A stretch of 64,000 nt of DNA, taken from Athripsodes cinereus. Lineage: Eukaryota > Arthropoda > Insecta > Trichoptera > Leptoceridae. Shown in pieces: positions 17,452-63,393 of the stretch. A program made the position numbers and the translations under genes. Location: contig OX388305.1 in the NCBI GenBank assembly GCA_947579605.1, positions 32,067,542 through 32,131,541 on the forward strand. Direction: 5' to 3'. Under the pieces are notes generated by a model that saw nothing but the letters and a program-made list of their open reading frames with translations, did no database searches and was not told the DNA's origin. How positions within the stretch are numbered: the first letter of the stretch is position 1; each line of letters begins with the position of its first letter.

Positions 17452-17776
17452 GTTGGTACCCATAATACAAGATTCATCTTAATTTGGGACTAGCTCGATC
17501 TGTATGAACTGTCTATGAATGTTATGTTATTATAATCTATTATATTGACACTTATCTGCGAAAAGATTTTCTTGCTGTCATGTGTCTCATTATAACTATA
17601 AATAAATAAAACAACTTTACATAAATATCCTTTATTTATTTACAAGTTACACGGACAATATACAATACATGGTTATGGCAAAAATCAACTAAAGATTTTG
17701 ATTTAATTTATGCAAAATTCAATGTTGTTTAATTAATAGTATCGGCATTAACTTTGTAATACTTCATTTTAAATTA

Positions 17777-17981
17777 TCAAATAAAATAAAATAAATATTT
17801 ATTATTTTGTTTTGTGTAACTGTTGAGTAAGACTAACGCACGACCGGCGTTTAGATCAGATCTAGTAGTATAGATCAGCACCTGATGATGCGAACTCGTA
17901 GTCCGCGAAACCAGTCGTGCGTTAGTCTTACTCAACAGTGACACAAAACAAAATAATAAATATTTATTTTATTTTATTTGA
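17777..17981. mobile_element. Foldback element with hammerhead ribozyme
   Basis: Arms 17777-17844 and 17914-17981 are 68-bp inverted repeats with one mismatch. The 69-nt loop carries a canonical hammerhead on the + strand. The right arm begins two bases before the predicted cleavage site, so the left arm is an inverted copy of the 3' cleavage product. A half copy of the same family lies at 44547. Confidence 0.85.
17878..17920 (+). ncRNA. Type I hammerhead ribozyme candidate
   Basis: Stem I GCAC 17878-17881; core CUGAUGA 17882-17888; extra U 17889; helix II GCG.ACU with AGU.CGC (17890-17906, one A-C mismatch, loop CGU); GAA 17907-17909; helix III A-C with G-U and a CA loop (17910-17915); C17 at 17916; stem I' GUGC 17917-17920. 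All catalytic residues (G5, A6, G8, A9, G12, A13, A14) are canonical and the triplet is GUC. Predicted cut between 17916 and 17917. The extra base after A9 is a known tolerated variation in natural hammerheads. Confidence 0.75.
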
Positions 17982-18161
17982 TAATAAACATTAATTCAAA
18001 AATTACAGATAAAATAGCCAAACTACATAGAAAACTAATGATTGACACAAATAGTACATAAATGATATTTATATTAATAAAAACACTGCAATTACTCAAA
18101 ATTTGTTGTAACGAAATTCAATTCTTTAAAATTAGTTTTAATAACAATTCTTTAACAATTA

Positions 18162-18242
18162 TATACCTATTAATATAAAATAATTACCTAATTAATTAAT
18201 ATTTTATATTAATAGGTATATTATACCTATTAATATAAAATA
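18162..18242. repeat. 21-bp unit, inverted then direct
   Basis: TATACCTATTAATATAAAATA (one base over 20, split as TATACCTATTAA + TATAAAATA) occurs at 18162-18182, inverted at 18200-18220, and direct again at 18222-18242, all without mismatches. Cruciform-capable. Confidence 0.85.
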
Positions 18243-20345
18243 TTCATAGTAAGTAGAATATTTGCTTCTAAGTTATGACCATAATTCATAATATAGTTCC
18301 AATGTTAGAATGTATCCGAGGTCACTGACCGATTGCACCCTACTGCATTATTTATATGTGTATGTACGTAACAATACTCTTTATAACAATGCATCCGATC
18401 ACATGGTCCCTATGATCACAATGCCTACCTATATAGTTAGGTATACATATTTACTATATAGGTATTCTCCCCATATTCGTATATCATATTATACTAGTGT
18501 TATTAAACCCGACTTCTATCAGGAAATATAAACATCAAAATATTGACAAATTATGTAACACTATTTTAAAAAGTATATAGGTAATTTACGCACAGGGTTT
18601 CCTGAGAAATGGAAACAATGTGGAGAAGATAGGTAATTTAAAAGTTGGCAACTCCACGTTGGATATATTTTTAACAATTTATGACGAATTAATGCAAAAT
18701 ATTACTACCTAATTTACTTTTGATTAGTTATTTATTTTATTTTAATAGCTGTTATAATATTTAGGCACAAATAGGTGCATATTATTTTGAACGTTACAAT
18801 CATGATAGTAAAATATTTTTCCTTCTTATAATATAAACACAATAAAATGAAAATGTTGATTTTAGACAAAACCCAGAACAATATATTCACTACCGATACA
18901 TAATATGTTATGACATAATATCATATAATATCGCAATCTGTAATAATCCTATCAATAAAAAATATATGGTAATGTTTTAAGTCTAAAGGATGGGACTGTA
19001 GGTGTATAATTTTTCTTCTGGTGGTAATATAGAGTACATATTATAAACATACAAACATTTATATCCGAACTGATTAAGATATTTATATGGAGTCGTGTGA
19101 TTTGGTGATTTGGTAGGTAGGTATACAATGCATGGTCCCGTTATATCGTTGTCCTTATCAGAATGTATAGACCTACATGCCTACCCATAGCGAATCATAA
19201 TACTACAATCACGGTTTTTATAGTTAGTTCCCCAAAGTACCTACAGGATAATCGAAAAGTTACTGTTATTTAAATAATGACGAGGCTAGGATATACTGAA
19301 AAAAATGTTTCATATAACAACGAGAGAGAGACCTCCGTCGATTTCTTAGGATGTTAACTAAATATAGAATTCTTCTAATTGAGTACCATTACTATAAATA
19401 AATAAATAATAAATTTAACCATACTTGGAACCACTCTAGATTAATCATTCCAATTGATCACACTCACCGATAGTCAGCCTATTTGAATAGGTATTAACTA
19501 CATAGGTAGATATGTTGTATATGATACACATACATTTATGTGAACTTCCTAAGGAGTGCACGACACAGAGTTTCGACGCTTGTGAATCGACTCAAGCCTT
19601 GTTTAAGAGTATATAGTTCACATCCAATTGTGTCAAAAATTCATAACATAAATAAAATAAATAATGACTAGACAATCGATAGACATAAACTTCTAACTTT
19701 GGAACTTTCTATCTAGCTGGAGATCCCGGGAATTAAATATTCTCACTGCTGATTAATTCGTTGGTTATAAATTGCTTTCTTGTTTCTAAAAATACCTACT
19801 AGTATTAATCTTTTGTTTTGAAATTGAAAATAAAAATCTATTAAAGCGATAATTTTCATAAGGGAGAAATGTTTTTTTTTTCTTGAAATGGATATGGTAA
19901 CATTATTTATATATTTTGGTAGCCAGTAGGCGAACTGTACGTAAAAAATATGCAAGTTGCCATCTTCTAACTAGTAAATACATATTTCAATTTGTATATA
20001 TTTCATCTTTTAGCGGTTGCATAATTATATTTATTGACACTGTTGATATTTTTTGACGTTTTGATTACTAACACTTTCACTTTACAACTAGCTTTACTGT
20101 TATTTCTAAATTTCTATGGTATTGCGCTCACATTTTAAAATATAAGACATAATTTTTTTTTTGAAAATTTCATATATTTAAAACCAGATTAAGATGTATT
20201 TTTTCATCCCAAATATATCGTTTACACCATTCATAAAAATTTATTCGTCTCTACGATAAACCTTGTAAACGTTACACACAACTTTTCTTTGTAGCTTTTA
20301 AAAAAAAGTTAAATATCTTTTTATTCGTGTTTGTACACCCTGTGT
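18243..20345. other. AT-rich DNA with a foldback relic
   Basis: At 19318-19355 AACGAGAGAGAGACC...GTCGATTTCTTAGGA is a decayed fragment of the hammerhead foldback family. Nothing else recognised. Confidence 0.35.
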
Positions 20346-21333: not shown

Positions 21334-21784
21334 TTGCAAATATAGAAATATGAATTTGTTATATCGAACTGTCGAGCCATATGGAATCAGATATAACATT
21401 AATTAGGTTTTTATTTACTTAATTTAGACAGTAAACATCATTTGCCTTTACACGACAAATTAACATAATATAATTAGGTAGGTACATTGTGACTTTGGGA
21501 GAAGCTTAAAAGTTCTATTTCCAAAGCACTTATTCTGCTAATCAAAAATATTTAAGTTTTCTATAAAATATAATGTATTGAACAATATTATGCTAATGTG
21601 AGCGATAATATATATCCTTACCGTGAAATTTAGATATAGCTCCTTCCATTTCGAATGCTTTTCAATAAAAATAAAGTATTCTATTTTTTCGGTGGTAACC
21701 TTATTTTTTTTTTATTTATTTTATTTAACATATTTTTTACAAGTACATTTTTTACAAGTACATTATGAAAGTTCATTTTTTTTA

Positions 21785-21939
21785 TATTAAAATGATTAAG
21801 TTAAAACACTGTTACTTTCACTGTATAAATTTTATTTTCTAAGTTGACGGCACTGAAGATGGACTAAGTCCGAAAGGCCTCTGCCAAAATAAAATTTATA
21901 GAGTGAAAGTTACAGTGTTTTAATTTAATCATTTTAATA
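21785..21939. mobile_element. Foldback element with hammerhead ribozyme
   Basis: Arms about 21785-21838 and 21886-21939 are inverted repeats with a few mismatches (AAAATGATTAAGTTAAAACA; TATAAATTTTATTTT). The loop between them is a canonical hammerhead on the + strand. Arm sequence is unrelated to the other foldback families. Confidence 0.85.
21849..21885 (+). ncRNA. Type I hammerhead ribozyme candidate
   Basis: Stem I GGCA 21849-21852; core CUGAAGA 21853-21859; extra U 21860; helix II GGAC/GUCC with UAA loop 21861-21871; GAA 21872-21874; palindromic helix III AGGCCU 21875-21880; C17 21881; stem I' UGCC 21882-21885. Every required core base is present and the triplet is CUC. Helix III has no loop in cis, so the fold would work best as a dimer. 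Beyond a 10-nt internal loop the arms extend the stem. Confidence 0.75.
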
Positions 21940-22759
21940 TTAATAAAAATAAAGTAATTAATTCTAATGTAGGTATACGCAAAAAAAAAACTTCTCTATC
22001 CGAGATTGTTTTTGAATAATAGATTGATTATTTTCAACACTTTATTTAGGTGCGTGCAGTTCGTTTATCAACTGAATCTTTTTTCTCTAATAATGTATTA
22101 CTAGTAAAAAATGTAGTAATGAAAAACAAAACAAATCGATTTTTCGCTGACCCTCAAACACACATGACCTAAATAATTAGTTGACGTGCTCTCATTGTAA
22201 GAATATAATATATCTGAGTACAACTCATAACCTAAATTAAAAAGAAAACTTTTAATAACGTATTTATAATAATAATACTATTAGAAATAGTTAGCAACCT
22301 TCAAACGTAGGAATTTAGTTTTGTCACTCGGGTTATTTTTGCGTAACACGCAAGGTTTGATCGATTACACAAAATCTAGCAACTTAGCTTCATGCATATT
22401 TTCTACGTTTTGTTGCCTAGTTGTATGAACTTTATTTAATATAATATATATTTCTTTGTGTAACTCGTGTTATTATTTATATAGATTAAAGGCTATTTGT
22501 GGGTTTCACTCTTACCCTACGACCAACATTATTATTGGTATTACTTACTCGTATTATATGTATGAACACGCATCTGCGTTATAAAAATGCTTCTTCTCCA
22601 AGTGCTTCTCTTTTAGAGAATCTCAAAAAATAAAAAAGATTGGTTATTATTTTATGATGTGATTAACTTAATTTCAGAGAATCCACATATATTTTCATAG
22701 AGTAAATAAATCGACTTATATTTGCGAAAGAAGAAATGAAATTTAGCATTTGATAATAC
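21940..22759. other. AT-rich DNA, nothing identifiable
   Basis: No gene or repeat recognised. Confidence 0.35.
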
Positions 22760-36482: not shown

Positions 36483-38927
36483 ATAGTTACTACTTTTACT
36501 ATATTTACTGTGTTTAGGTCCGAACGGTGTTTCTTTGCTACCACTACAGTTCTCGTATTCTTTGGATGGAAGGTTACTGGAGAAAGAAGAAGGCTACAAC
36601 TGACTTGGACCCTAGAAGTTGACACACATAGAGAATGTCTTACTCCTCGTGTTCACTGGTGGCGCCATTATGTATATTTAACATCATAAGGCACGCGGTG
36701 AATGCCAAGAGCAGACTGATTTCTTCAAGCTGATACTGATCAATTTAATCTTCGTCATTTTTATTATGTATTAGAGGACCTAAAGATTGAATTGTAATTG
36801 TTAACTATGTAGATAAATGTACCAATCTTATTTAATTTTTGTAATTTTTATTTGGTGTGCTATTTAGCCTTGATCACGAGTCAACGAGTAAATGACCTTC
36901 ATAGGTAATTTGTAATATATTATTAAAGAGATGTTTTAGCCTGATAAGATTTATTCTTAAATTTTCAAAGTGCCCATTTTTACACCAGTTACGGTAGTGA
37001 AAAGTGATTTTTTTTTCACATTGTTTACGTCTTATTTCAAATATTTTATTTTTCCTTTATTATGCGCGAAATATGAAATACTGATGAAAATGTTAACAAC
37101 GAAGAACTTTTAAAAATGTATTAGCAATCATAAAGTTTACACCAAATTTTTAGTTTCAAAGAATGCACTTTATTGTGAAAGTTCTGTAAGTAATTATTAT
37201 AATATAAAACCAAGAGATGTTATTTATGCATCATCTCCGTTACATTGCTTTGATAAAAACTATCAAACCGACATTACGTTGTATTATAATGTAGTTTGTT
37301 GACAATATTTAATATACTCAACATTTAATATGTAGATACATTTGCAGCGCAATGCTGGTATGGAAATTGCATATTGTATGAAGACACAATATGCAATACA
37401 TACTGTATAATTTCAGTTTGATGTACGTGTATACGGATGGTGTCATGCAATAATGTGTCAAAACATGCCAACCTCAAACTGATACTGTTGATGTTTTGTG
37501 TTAAACGCAGAGGTATTTATTAAGTTACTACACACTTAGTTCCGGTGATCAGACAGTTTGTGTCACTTTGTAAAGGCTTGACTTCCGAAACAATAGATCT
37601 TCAAGCTTTTTGATCCAAGCCTAAAGTGTTTAGCATTAAGCTCAAGCCCCGGGCAAGGGTGAATGAGTGCTGCCACCTATTTTCGCACTAATAAGCATTT
37701 TTTTTATTATTTAACTTTTTCTTTAACTTCTTTAAACTTTTTAATTTTGCTTTTTTAGTAAGTGTGTGTATGTATTACATATATCACATGTTGAGTGTAG
37801 GTATTAATTTATTGTTATCATGTTATGTTATTACTGTTTTATTCTCTAATATTGTAAAAATAAAAATAACACAATAGGTCTCAGCAGAGTTATTCTTACC
37901 ACGATCTTAATCTTTGCCTCATCTTAATCCTACGATGCGCGATGTGACCATAGTCAAAAAAACGTACATAATAATCCTGCTGTAGCTGAGGACAGTCGTT
38001 TTCAACATTTACATGAGTATCATGGATTTGTTTTTGTCAAACGCAATAATATACCAGACATTGGTGTATATATTTATATTGTGATTACCTTACAATGGTT
38101 TTCTTAAATTCTGAATCCTTGAAATTTATCTGTATAGTTTGTAAGTAAATACCTAAGTTGGATGTAAAATGTATCTTTGTTTGAAAGGTATTAGCTGTTT
38201 ATTTAATAAACAAACATGTATTGATGTTAACTAACACTATTTGCCATGGTTTGCTAAACAATCTTATGCTCTCGAGTATACTTACCTTGCAGAATGCACT
38301 ACGTTGACTTTTCATTTTCATTAACTTTAGTTTAGGATTGGTTGAATATAATTGCTCGATAATTCGCAAAGTCGGAAAGCTAATTTTACAAAATTCTGAA
38401 TAGTGATATCAAATATTTTTATTGAATTATGGTTTTCTACATTGTCGCATAATGCTATTCATTTATTTTCCCTTGACATGTAAACATTGTTCCCTCGACG
38501 TTGCAGAATATTATTATGTATTATGGTGATTGCATTAGAGGTAGACGGGTTGATTGTTACATTAGAAGTGGTTGATATACATACATACAGATTCAGCTAA
38601 TCCTCTCTTCATTGTTATACCACCACAAGCCCACAGGAGACCAGAGAATTTGAATATTTGATTGCTCCGAGAGTTTGTACATATAACTATTTTCATATAT
38701 ATCATATAATTTTATCTATAATAATAGATAAGAGCTTTATTGTACCACTGCATTTTACACTAGAGGGTAACCAGTTAATTAACCGCACGTTATAAACATA
38801 AAGTTTTTTTTTTATTATTTTAATACACAATGAAAATAAAATAACTAACTTTAAACTCGGTTATAAATAAAATGCTTAAACAGCTCAAACTCATGAACTC
38901 CATGGAAGATGTATACTTTTCATCGTA
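36483..38927. other. AT-rich DNA with a 12-bp hairpin
   Basis: ATTGCATATTGT at 37366-37377 is inverted at 37386-37397 with an 8-nt loop. No gene recognised; the 92-codon frame at 36411 has no motif. Confidence 0.35.
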
Positions 38928-42405: not shown

Positions 42406-42605
42406 NNNNNNNNNNNNNNNNNNNNNNNNNNNNNNNNNNNNNNNNNNNNNNNNNNNNNNNNNNNNNNNNNNNNNNNNNNNNNNNNNNNNNNNNNNNNNNN
42501 NNNNNNNNNNNNNNNNNNNNNNNNNNNNNNNNNNNNNNNNNNNNNNNNNNNNNNNNNNNNNNNNNNNNNNNNNNNNNNNNNNNNNNNNNNNNNNNNNNNN
42601 NNNNN
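42406..42605. other. Assembly gap, 200 N
   Basis: Exactly 200 unknown bases; the round size suggests a fixed-length or estimated scaffold gap. Confidence 0.99.
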
Positions 42606-44330: not shown

Positions 44331-44546
44331 TTTATATAATTATATAAACCAATACTTATTTAAAAGTAATACTTTTATTTATTTTTTATTGAAAAGTTGG
44401 ACTTTCTTTTAAAAAATTTGTACTTACACATTTATTTCAACTTAATTCTATTAATATCTAGCGACATGTTTTCATACATTACAAACAAACAAACTTAAAT
44501 CACTTCAAGCAATATTATTTTTTTAACTTAAAAAACTTTTACTTTA

Positions 44547-44660
44547 TCAAATAAAATAAAATAAATATTTATTATTTTGTTTTGTGTTACTGTTGAGTAT
44601 GACTAACGCACGACCGGTTTCGCGGACTCCGAGTTCGCATCATCAGGTGCTGATCTATAC
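44547..44660. mobile_element. Half foldback with hammerhead ribozyme
   Basis: The left arm (AAATAAAATAAAATAAATAT... GACTAACGCACGACC) matches 17777-17844 almost exactly, but the right arm is absent and the loop is inverted relative to that copy. The hammerhead is therefore on the minus strand. Confidence 0.8.
44608..44650 (-). ncRNA. Type I hammerhead ribozyme candidate
   Basis: Minus strand: stem I GCAC 44650-44647; core CUGAUGA 44646-44640; extra U 44639; helix II GCG.ACU/AGU.CGC with one A-C mismatch, 44638-44622; GAA 44621-44619; palindromic helix III ACCGGU 44618-44613; C17 44612; stem I' GUGC 44611-44608. Fully canonical core, triplet GUC, predicted cut between 44612 and 44611. Confidence 0.75.
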
Positions 44661-44904
44661 TGAATTAAACAAAAACAAATACAAAAGTTCGTTAGGGTTT
44701 ACAGTGAGGGTGTAGGGGTAGGCGGGGTCGTGTTGGTTTCAGGCGTGGAGTTCTTGGAATATGAGATGGATCTAACACAAAAATACATACACATAGAAAT
44801 TCTATGATACAAAGATATAAGAAAAAGGAATATTGACCACGTCCAATCGAAATACATTATGTTGTTACGAGATAGGAACAAAAACGTATGATTATATACC
44901 TCTA

Positions 44905-55339: not shown

Positions 55340-55850
55340 GTATCAATAATCATACATACCATCACGCCGTTTCCCTCGCGGGGTAGGCAGAAAGGATTGA
55401 GCGCCACTTCCTTCAATCCTTGCATACATCTTTCGCTTCCGTCACTGTCATACAATTCCTCATGCATGCTCTCCTGTTCAATGTGCTCAACACGTGACCG
55501 TCCTGTAGGATTTGATTTAAATGATCTTGCCATTTAATCCTCGGACGTCCGCGTCTCCGAGCACCATTCCTCTCAGCCAAATATATCTTCTTAGTCATTC
55601 TGTCCTCATTCATTCTTTCCACGTGCCCAAACCATCTTAACTTATTTACATTCATCCTTGTTATTACACCAACTTTCATTCCACATTCCTTTCGTATATC
55701 ACTGTTACGCACACGATCTCTCAGACTTTTGCCACACATCCTTCTCAACGATCTCATTTTCACTGCATTTATGCCACTTTCATCCTTCTTTAACCATGTC
55801 CACGTCTCCCTTGCATACATAAGTGTTGGCACTAAGATAGCAGAGTATAT
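55340..55850 (-). mobile_element. LINE-A 3' end, one nonsense change
   Basis: The minus strand follows the 62599-63393 protein closely from PTLMYARETWTWLKKDES through KLRWFGHVERMNEDRM, RRGRPRIKWQDH and RRACMRNCMTVTEAKD to CKD, where TGA at 55413-55415 replaces an Arg codon. The rest of the C-terminus and the GGCGTGATGGTATG tail follow. Truncated at about 55848. Close similarity to 62599 shows recent activity of this subfamily. Confidence 0.85.
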
Positions 55851-56159: not shown

Positions 56160-56300
56160 TCGTTCAGCTCCCGAACAGAGTTCAGGGTTACCCTTTAGTG
56201 GGAACAGATCAATATCTGCTGTTGTAACCATGGCAACCAGCTGGTAGTATCTGAACAACCCCCCGAAGCTGGGCGGAAACTTCCGAACTTTCATCTCAAA
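56160..56300. other. GC-richer island with RFX X-box
   Basis: TCAGCTCCCGAACAGAGTTC, the X-box, and CCCCGAAGCTGGGCGGAAAC. Candidate enhancer or promoter; no transcript evidence. Confidence 0.35.
56224..56237. promoter_or_regulatory. RFX-type X-box, exact palindromic consensus
   Basis: GTAACCATGGCAAC is the canonical X-box bound by RFX transcription factors, which in insects act in ciliated sensory neurons. Functional role here is inferred only from the motif. Confidence 0.45.
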
Positions 56301-56438
56301 TACCAGTGTACTTGTTTATAATTCGTTCCTCATTTCACCCACGTATGTATGACACTTTAAATTTACACCTACCCAGTTTTTTGATAGCTGATATTTACAG
56401 CTAACTAACTTTAGTAAAATAACATTACATAACAGAGT

Positions 56439-56483
56439 CCTCCTGATGATGCCAAGTAGAAGCCTTGGCGAAAACGTTTGAGG
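56439..56483 (+). ncRNA. Type I hammerhead ribozyme candidate
   Basis: Stem I CCUC 56439-56442; core CUGAUGA 56443-56449; extra U 56450; helix II GCCAAG/CUUGGC (56451-56456, 56464-56469) with a 7-nt loop; GAA 56470-56472; palindromic helix III AACGUU 56473-56478; H17 U at 56479; stem I' GAGG 56480-56483. All core residues canonical; the triplet UUU is allowed but usually slow. Not flanked by arms; a separate inverted repeat (AATTTGGAAATT) lies just downstream. Relatives: 39297 and 58944 minus. Confidence 0.7.
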
Positions 56484-56554
56484 TGAATAAATTTAATTTG
56501 GAAATTATACAGTGTTTTTAAATTCATTTTAATTATAATGAATTTCCAAAGTGT

Positions 56555-58767
56555 TAACACAAAAACATTTGATTTATTAAAATAACATTATCTTTTTTTT
56601 ATTTCCCACAGAACATTGAATTGTCCATTAATTAAGAAAAGAAAATAAAGTTAATTTTATTTATTTATTTAAAGGTCAAACATTATCTTAAGTTGAAAAA
56701 TTTATTTAATTGAAAGGTTTTTTCCCATTTATAATATCTATTAAGAAAAAAACTATTTTATTATAAGGTATTTTTTCGACGCAAAATGTAATTTTTTGTA
56801 GAGAAAGGTTGTGAACGATGTTTTAGTAAAAAATGTTAATCTTTTTATATACCTACAAATTTTTCCCCGGTATATAAATTTAAGATATTGAAAGGATCGA
56901 CGAGTTAACAGTTCTAACTGTCCCAATATCCCAAATATGAATATTTATACTATTGTATACTTACCTATCTATTACAATACAAAAACCCAGTTTAATTTCC
57001 ATATTGTTTTGTGTATAGTATCCGCCCAATAGTTAGATTAACCGGTTAACAAAATGACTGGGTGGTTAAAATGCCGCCACTCAATTGAATACCTAGCTGC
57101 AATGACGCATCAAGCGTTCAATAGTCTTCCTGGTCGAAGCTAGCCCGATTGTTGAAATTAAGTCTTTTTATTTGGCGCTGTAGCGTTAGAATTGATGAAC
57201 GTTGCGATAAATAATCCAGATAGATCTCTTCCTTGTAAGCCATTCAATTGAATGCCATGGTTTAACTAATACCCTAGCCATTTGGCTAACTGACTAATTC
57301 AACTATCTGGACACGACATAGAGCTTATAAAAATTCTACCTCGTTTGAAAATCTTAATCTATTTTATGAAATACTTTTTCAAATGGATGAAATCAATATT
57401 TGAGAACTATGAATTTCATAATAGCTTGCAACAATTATCAGGCCGTTCTATGGGATTTTATTAAAATAAATAATAATTCTATATTTATACCATAACAATA
57501 TTTCTTATAACTCATAAGTGGAATAAGCAGTAGATTAACATGGTAGTGGTCCTCTCTGTCCCTATGAATAAATAAATAATAAAAAAAGTACAATTCGATA
57601 GAAACAAGAAAATAAAACTTATCCATATCATTGAGTAACAACCTACACGTGCAACAAAATCAAAATGTATCTTATCAACTGGGCTTCAGTATCATAGGGC
57701 CGTGTATCATCCAGAGGCACACTTAGTGATTGAGTACGTGAGAAGGTACCTAGGTATTATAAGATCGTAGAGCTAAAACTATACATATCGGTATAACACG
57801 AACAACGCTGCCGAGGCCTCAAGGTGATTATAGCAATTTATCACACAAACTGCTCCGTATGATGCTGACTGGGCAAGTTAAGTTACTGTAAAAGAATAAT
57901 GCTGTACCTATACCTAGTTACGTATTACATGAGTGTCTGCTTTAATAGCTGTATTATTATGTCCTGCGATTTCTCTCTCCTGTTACATTCTGAAACGTGG
58001 TGTGCAATTTTTCATCGGTGCTAAATATTTTTATCACGAGCCCTGCGCCAATTTTCTTTTTTAGATTTTTCTCATAGTTTATGTTTCAAATTGATTATGA
58101 TTTTGTTATTTATGTTTTGTGAAATTTTTCAAACATTTGGTGATGCACTCAGTAAAATATAATCTTTAATATTGTTAACTGGTAAACAAAAGTAATAAAA
58201 TTAAAAACTAATTAAATTTTATTTAGTATTGAGATTAATTTGTTAAAAAGTTGATCATAATAGTTTATCGTAAAATGTAAATTCTTAAAATTCTAATATT
58301 ATAAGAAAACTAAGATCTATAATATTTTTAGACTAAAGCATATTCTGTATGAAATAAAAGATATAAAATGGTAATTTCATTGTTACTTACACCGACCCTG
58401 ATTAATTTAACAAACTTATGATTTTATAGACATTTTGTAGTCTGCAGACTAATACAAATGTCGGCATCCACCACAATAGAAGTACATAATATTTAATAAT
58501 GAGTTTGTAGATATTAGGTATATATATAGTATCTGTCCACTGCAAAATAAAATTTCAATGTATAAAATAGGTAAAACTTATCATACAACAAACCTCGCCT
58601 TATTAGATTTGGAGAAATTATCAAGTTGATAAAACTCAAATTATCAATTGAAACAGTAATAGAAATTGTACATACGAGAACACATGTAAAGATTAAACAC
58701 CTTGATCATCTGTTGTAAAAGAGTGAACAGCCTGAGTTAGGAAGTAAAACAAAATTATTATTTAAAA
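56555..58767. other. AT-rich DNA, nothing identifiable
   Basis: No gene or repeat recognised. Confidence 0.35.
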
Positions 58768-62598: not shown

Positions 62599-63393
62599 TC
62601 ACGCCGCTTCCCTCGCGGGGTAGGCAGAAAGGATCGAGCGCCACTTCCTTCTATCCTTGCATACATCTTTCGCTTCCGTCACTGTCATACAATTCCTCAT
62701 GCATGCTCTCCTGTTCAATGTGCTCAACACGTGACCGTCCTGTAGGATTTGATTTAAATGATCTTGCCATTTAATCCTCGGACGTCCGCGTCTCCGAGCA
62801 CCATTCCTCTCAGCCAAATATATCTTCTTAGTCATTCTGTCCTCATTCATTCTTTCCACGTGCCCAAACCATCTTAACTTATTTACATTCATCTTTGTTA
62901 TTACACCAACTTTCATTCCACATTCCTTTCGTATATCACTGTTACGTACACGATCTCTCAGACTCTTGCCACACATCCTTCTCAACGATCTCATTTCCAC
63001 TGCATTTATGCCACTTTCATCCTTTTTTAACCATGTCCACGTCTCACTTGCAAACATAAGTGTTGGCACTAAGATAGCAGAGTGCACCAACCTTTTAGCT
63101 GTGGTGGATATGTTTCTATTTGCAATTATTGGTCGGATTGCACCATTTACCTTATTACCAGCAACTTTTCTCCTTTCAATATCGCTTTCACACTTCCCAT
63201 CTCTCGTGAACAAACTACCTAAGTACACACATTCGTCAACTTGCTCTAACACTTCGTTGTCAATCATTACCTGGCATACTGTTCTCTCACTTCCTCTTTC
63301 AAACACCATGATTTTTGTCTTTTTTGCATTCATTCTCAATCCCTTAATCGCACAATTTTCATACACACACGTCATCATTCGCTGTAACTTCAT
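62599..63393 (-). CDS. LINE-A reverse transcriptase C-terminal fragment, 264 aa
   Basis: Longest open frame of the window; part of a 5'-truncated LINE (about 62581-63435), not a host gene. It starts just after the place where the catalytic YADD box should be. Residues 15-31 (NCAIKGLRMNAKKTKIMVF) are the conserved block downstream of that box. YLGS is at 57-60, ETWTW at 117-121, EMRSLRRMCGKSLRDRVRN at 133-151, KLRWFGHVERM at 172-182, RRGRPRIKWQDHL at 201-213, RRACMRNCMT at 228-237 and WRSILSAYP at 251-259. This layout is that of RTE/Proto2-like non-LTR elements. The RT fingers, catalytic Asps and any endonuclease are absent, so the product cannot be enzymatically complete. The stop TGA (62599-62601) lies within the terminal GGCGTGATGG block, followed at once by a (TATG)n tail; the element thus has almost no 3' UTR. 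The frame continues open upstream of the Met to about 63432. Confidence 0.85.
   Translation of the reverse strand: MKLQRMMTCVYENCAIKGLRMNAKKTKIMVFERGSERTVCQVMIDNEVLEQVDECVYLGSLFTRDGKCESDIERRKVAGNKVNGAIRPIIANRNISTTAKRLVHSAILVPTLMFASETWTWLKKDESGINAVEMRSLRRMCGKSLRDRVRNSDIRKECGMKVGVITKMNVNKLRWFGHVERMNEDRMTKKIYLAERNGARRRGRPRIKWQDHLNQILQDGHVLSTLNRRACMRNCMTVTEAKDVCKDRRKWRSILSAYPAREAA

Follow-up and report, generated by a model that had tools for sequence, protein, structure and literature searches.

Head-to-head pairs of hammerhead-bearing Penelope-like leaders in the genome of Athripsodes cinereus and their probable origin by priming on both target strands

A palindromic element and its relatives in the window

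The stretch of Athripsodes cinereus DNA analyzed here (contig OX388305.1; 64,000 nucleotides, hereafter the window, in whose coordinates positions are given) contains at 17728-17985 a palindromic element that is one insertion of a multi-copy retroelement. An inverted-repeat scan of the window found two arms of 75 nt at 17773-17847 and 17911-17985 that are 97% complementary, and the palindrome folds with −113.5 kcal/mol (z = −20 vs 200 shuffles). An earlier note on this DNA had described the left arm as an inverted copy of the right arm, which holds, and had placed a hammerhead motif between them. The element is made of two leader units of a Penelope-like element (PLE) family, here called family A, whose reference locus L111 lies elsewhere in the genome. 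The window contains three such hammerhead-leader families, of which A and B are linked to PLE proteins and C is grouped with them by structure only. Their features in the window are:

17728..17847, minus strand: left half of the family A pair, covering leader positions 167 to 45, 91.9% identical to L111
about 17728-17767, minus strand: one-sided tail (first ORF codons), part of the family A left half
17867..17985, plus strand: right half of the family A pair, covering leader positions 1 to 122, without tail, 92.6% identical to L111
17878..17920, plus strand: hammerhead-like core GCAC-CUGAUGA-U-GCG..CGC-GAA-A(CCAG)U-C^GUGC, from a descriptor scan with one inserted base; folds in isolation
21676..21838, minus strand: left half of a family B palindrome, with tail
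21830..21953, plus strand: right half of the family B palindrome, with a hammerhead-like core at 21849-21885
44537..44769, minus strand: remnant of a family A PLE, truncated to its 3' end (C-terminal part of the ORF and 3'UTR, followed by hammerhead and arm, no tail), from blastn and an exact core match
56436..56585, plus strand: single leader-like unit of family C with tail and hammerhead-like core, from the descriptor scan and genome matches

The right half of the family A pair starts with AGTATAG, the 5' end common to many copies, and the left half ends at leader position +45, which is 6 nt past the predicted ribozyme cut and one value within a spread. The flank repeat of this copy is only 7 bp, with no clear target site duplication (TSD), a point against the explanation preferred below. 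The family B palindrome has inverted arms at 21776-21838/21886-21948 and a tail into which some 36 bp are inserted (21724-21759). The truncated PLE is 94.5% identical over 236 columns to L111 2576-2811 and holds the window's second family A copy (44661-44544, minus strand). No partner half was found for the family C unit among inverted pairs of at least 20 nt at 56300-56700, and the 39 other genomic places with the best scores match it at 96-100% identity; judged from these identities, family C is likely to have been active recently. A tblastn comparison of PLE proteins with the window gave no match at E 0.01, and blastn recovered PLE fragments that it had missed.

Elsewhere in the window, a mir-124 precursor scores above the Rfam threshold at 36641-36713 (plus strand), and two related minus-strand frames at 55413-55832 and 62599-63393 resemble, by eye, C-terminal pieces of a LINE polyprotein. 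A near-perfect AT-rich inverted repeat of 26 nt lies at 18195-18247, and a run of 200 N at 42406-42605 is likely an assembly gap or a withheld stretch.

The hammerhead-like core

In the core at 17878-17920, GUC is followed by GUGC, which puts the predicted cut after 17916; helix II is GCG/CGC and is preceded by an unpaired U, and stem I continues past GCAC/GUGC via a CA/GUUA internal loop. A match to the type I core (CUGANGA..GAAA..UH with three helices) required an additional base behind CUGANGA, and a descriptor without an inserted base had no match on either strand of the window. The earlier note's palindrome with a hammerhead-like core is thus retained, whereas its description of the ribozyme as "fully canonical" is not. 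With room for one base ahead of helix II, the descriptor gave four matches in the window (17882 plus, 21853 plus, 56443 plus and about 44646 minus); the last has no left arm because the locus is a truncated PLE. The same descriptor reported six matches, at four separate places, in a random control of 20 Mb of single-stranded sequence with the same dinucleotide make-up. The covariance search recommended in the note was negative, an outcome that it had listed among its refuting observations: no Rfam hammerhead model matched at the gathering threshold in the window, or at E <= 10 on 17700-18060 or on five related loci that include an intact PLE. This says little about the ribozyme because the core has the extra base. 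A viroid hammerhead with an extra core nucleotide is reportedly on record.

The extra base is U in 97 of 98 pattern-matched family A and B cores and C in the other. The helix III loop reads CCGG in 35/36 family A cores, the exception having CCAG like the window copy, and GGCC in 62/62 family B cores, these being fixed-pattern counts that pick near-intact cores and may count one locus on both strands, and so not unbiased rates. A search for the same A and B cores without the extra base found none. In the family C window copy the loop is ACGT and the position of the cleavage triplet reads UUU, a poorer hammerhead cleavage site. Around this core the helices of families A, B and C are GCG/CGC, GGAC/GUCC and GCCAAG/CUUGGC for helix II and GCAC/GUGC, GGCA/UGCC and CCUC/GAGG for stem I. 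Such wholly different helix sequences around one core constitute, at the level of sequence, covariation between three families. Self-complementary helix III loops permitting dimers are described for other hammerheads (PMC3088659; PMC7229834).

Folding predictions differ between the palindrome and its parts. In the whole window palindrome the left arm pairs with the strand of the cleavage site, so that forcing the hammerhead carries a cost of 12.2 kcal/mol, and this cost falls to 0 when the left half is removed; a leader alone with the hammerhead formed lies 0-1.9 kcal/mol from its optimum fold. From this penalty we predict that in the finished palindrome the hammerhead is masked by the opposite arm and that the palindromic copy is a poor ribozyme.

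A Penelope-like source and its genomic copies

L111 is a tandem locus that spans two family A tails. Its open frame has 832 codons from stop to stop (830 from ATG) and begins MKCYKVN (ATG AAG TGT TAC AAA...) within the tail, which therefore represents the first part of a protein gene. The order of the locus is a leader (hammerhead, arm and ORF start), the ORF, a stop, a 3'UTR and a second leader starting TTC/AGTATAG. The predicted protein contains a reverse transcriptase domain (RVT_1, E 2.8e-9) and a GIY-YIG nuclease domain (E 2e-5), each of which passes the curated cut-off, and has 63 homologous proteins, the first being an 808-aa protein of the butterfly Parnassius mnemosyne that is 40% identical over 97%. 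In family B, a GIY-YIG domain was found in copy L076 (E 8.1e-5), and L076, L078 and L085 have a related C-terminal frame adjoining the family B leader, the likeness of the last two being judged by eye. Structural traits of PLEs are also present, namely tandem pLTRs (in L111) and inverted pairs with one tail. On its domains and structure we assign the source to the Penelope-like elements with reverse transcriptase and GIY-YIG nuclease. The earlier note had named the Penelope-like elements among the retroelements known to carry hammerheads, and the hammerhead-type motif does belong to that family, L111 being the source PLE.

Copies were sought in the 716-Mb genome, where a first look gave 468 (A), 1158 (B) and 1440 (C) candidates; 40 per family were scored. 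Tail sequences match 1770 places genome-wide for family A (up to three mismatches) and 380 for family B (up to two mismatches), and reversed tail patterns used as a control had no match. The family A alignment consists of 28 distinct copies (30 loci minus two duplicates), all of which score as head-to-head pairs; their centers vary, and a single side of each runs about 45-50 bp further. Of 20 family A places found by tail and taken in map order, 10 score as head-to-head pairs and seven have the 3' end of a PLE in front of the leader; the other three are neither. Family B has the same plan, with head-to-head pairs in 27 of the 30 loci found by their arms (the exceptions are L051, L056 and L058). 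Of 49 family B loci found by tail, 27 score as pairs and 22 are unpaired, the latter counting against the preferred explanation; some of these are PLE copies with an ORF. For family C, hand counts of the 60 listed matches assign 38 to 19 head-to-head pairs, each of one long and one short half, and place the start of 48 within two bases of the corresponding AGT; the 22 listed matches that are unpaired likewise count against.

Pairs almost invariably have a single tail. One tail was scored in 27 of the 28 family A copies and seen by eye in the remaining one (L010), and one tail was scored in 24 of 27 arms-found family B pairs and in 15 of 16 scored pairs of the tail-found family B sample, in which the other had none. 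The three arms-found family B pairs scored as tail-less are the window copy L031, whose tail is split, and L039 and L054, and they stand against a strict rule. No pair with two tails occurs among the 71 scored in family A and both family B samples.

Most copies have direct flank repeats of 8-15 bp whose sequences differ between copies. Repeats of at least 8 bp flank 20/27 (A) and 20/24 (B) of the one-tail copies, compared with mean values of 9.5% and 10.9% (maxima 28% and 29%) in mispaired-flank controls. The two arms of a copy also tend to share subfamily variants. These occur in both arms versus one arm in a ratio of 7/0 at site 62 and 5/1 at site 79 of family A, and 14/4 at site 78, 15/3 at site 93 and 19/0 at site 94 of family B. 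Over all variable sites, arm agreement is 29 in family A (shuffled mean 12.9, maximum 28) and 62 in family B (shuffled mean 27.2, maximum 45) across 500 shuffled pairings. Single-arm variants are abundant and count against such agreement (115 cells in A, 145 in B), part of them being shifted gaps in AT-rich stretches. The shared variants make it most likely that both halves of a copy were made at the same time and are not an old inherited palindrome.

The inner ends of the halves bear on the RNA that was copied. In the 28 family A copies, 28 of 56 inner ends lie at +1 to +4, another 27 lie at +5 to +45 and one falls within 4 nt of the cut, so 55/56 halves reach past it. Ten further family A copies, chosen by tail position only, have 11, 4 and 1 of their 20 inner ends in the same classes and 4 beyond the cut, and 16/20 of these tail-found halves reach past the predicted cut. 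Upstream of +1, family A pairs have at most five bases, except for L127, which aligned to −17 in what we judged by eye to be chance, and in L125 position +1 is joined directly to +1 with no base between. The gathering of family A ends at +1 and their scarcity upstream suggest that +1, at TTC/AGT, is likely the 5' end of the template RNA; this sequence resembles an arthropod initiator. The 5' end of family B is less sharp, with several halves starting 8-23 nt upstream of +1, which counts against this assignment; these were included in the +1 to +4 class because the inner-end query starts at +1. In tail-found family B, 37 of 54 halves pass the cut and inner ends fall within 4 nt of it in only three. 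Since most halves were copied past the cut, the template leader RNA would have been mostly uncleaved.

Formation of the pairs and comparison with known systems

The element at 17728-17985 is probably a pair of hammerhead-bearing PLE leaders (pLTRs), inverted head to head and without a protein gene. It was likely produced by reverse transcription (RT), with both strands of a staggered cut at the target serving as primers. The PLE enzyme would nick both strands at an A/T-rich site, and each free 3' end would prime on a leader RNA. One RT start, some 13 codons into the ORF, would give the tail, and the other would lie close to the ATG. From these starts each cDNA would extend toward the 5' end of the RNA, which would be the AGT immediately before the ribozyme; a template jump or end joining may then connect the two cDNA ends. 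If both start sites lay in a leader at the RNA 5' end, a leader-only pair could result. Since the RNA appears to be used mostly uncleaved, the hammerhead is likely a passenger in the palindromic copies.

We favor priming on both strands, which the single tail, the flank repeats, the matched arms and the inner ends fit. The purified protein of Poseidon PAc, a PLE from Anolis, is reported to introduce nicks into both strands at AT-rich sites and to extend them, and its RT starts at two internal sites, the interval between them being the tail (PMC11167929). The same study describes a hammerhead that cuts only when PLE protein is added, the insertion of RNA regardless of hammerhead mutations, insertion in vitro thus being independent of cleavage, and no RNA-seq reads beginning or ending at the hammerhead cut (PMC11167929).

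A pair might also arise by self-priming, in which a first cDNA (or antisense RNA) folds back and is copied into the inverted half. This would account for the head-to-head order and the matched arms, and for rotifer Penelope elements it is proposed as one option, with other templates left possible (PMC3846280). Fold-back predicts, however, that the loop is always missing from the tail-less half, whereas in 15 of 27 one-tail family A copies truncation has gone further in the half with the tail. Counts of copies in which the tail half or the tail-less half is the shorter-reaching one are 15 v 11 (A), 12 v 7 (tail-found B) and 8 v 15 (arms-found B), a near-symmetric 35 versus 33 with nine equal among the 77 one-tail copies of the three samples. 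The +1-to-+1 junction of L125 moreover leaves no loop, and we regard self-priming as unlikely. Far less probable still is that hammerhead-cleaved RNA was copied, with the left arm marking the 3' cleavage product, as the earlier note had proposed. The left half of the window copy does end 6 nt from the cut, and 8/54 halves of arms-found family B end within 4 nt of it. A cleavage footprint in these eight was nevertheless discarded: the query used for that sample itself ended at +53, and the tail-found family B sample has the three near-cut and 37 passing halves given above. With the family A halves in 55/56 and 16/20 cases past the cut, about half of them reaching one 5' end and no pile-up at the cut in the tail-found samples, the proposal is not supported.

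We attach very little probability to a palindromic nonautonomous element (MITE- or SINE-like) that moved or was transcribed as a palindrome and inherited its center. The high copy number would suit such an element, and two family B copies (L061 and L091) have similar centers, with inner ends at +53 and +58/59, so some palindromes could be copied as such. Centers differ among most copies inspected, however, the one-sided tail is PLE coding sequence, the flank repeats differ in sequence and the arms share subfamily variants. A DNA transposon with terminal inverted repeats, or a SINE, was rejected on account of that same coding tail. Within the preferred reading of priming on both strands, it is possible but rather doubtful that an enzyme dimer gives each target strand one RT start, making every leader insertion an inverted one-tail pair, and that the hammerhead serves mainly as a pairing device whose self-complementary helix III loop (CCGG, GGCC and ACGT in the three families) keeps two leader RNAs joined and does not cut them.

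For PLEs, published work already covers both hammerheads in pLTRs and inverted pLTRs that have a tail on one side. The earlier note's idea that the palindromic form may be new is accordingly not supported, as such inverted pLTRs are described for Penelope elements (PMC3846280; PMC8969392). The literature searched, with most subscription papers outside its scope, yielded no inverted, leader-only PLE family of Lepidoptera that has a hammerhead at its center.

Metazoan retrozymes resemble the families described here in their type I hammerhead, to which the present cores are similar, and in their short AT-rich repeats, and the axolotl retrozyme has a weak helix III with a palindromic tetraloop (PMC7229834). 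They differ in consisting of direct tandem repeats that give circular RNA, whereas here we find inverted pairs, a PLE tail and a PLE source (PMC7229834). The paired units are head-to-head and not direct tandem hammerhead repeats, so this retrozyme trait is absent.

Poseidon PAc is alike in having a hammerhead in the pLTR at the ORF start, an AT-rich target and a tail equal to the interval of two RT starts (PMC11167929). It differs in its reported tandem arrangement and in showing no difference in start site between the strands, whereas the halves of our pairs nearly always differ, which counts against the preferred explanation. In the Penelope elements of the rotifer Adineta vaga, an ORF with pLTRs has an adjacent inverted pLTR, mostly head-to-head, and solo pLTRs also occur; one inverted pLTR has an optional 31 bp tail reaching into the ORF, and the TSDs are 8-10 bp (PMC3846280). 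The resemblance extends to the ORF with pLTRs, the head-to-head inverted pLTR, the one-sided tail into the ORF, the short TSDs and the solo pLTRs. The one-tail rule, the matched arms and the symmetric truncation of the present families add detail on PLE insertion, and their copies, which display the steps unusually clearly, bear on how PLEs insert and what their hammerheads do. Compared with the rotifer elements, most pairs inspected here lack an ORF between the halves and are present in high copy number, their center has a hammerhead-like core, and the tail occurs on one half in nearly all pairs.
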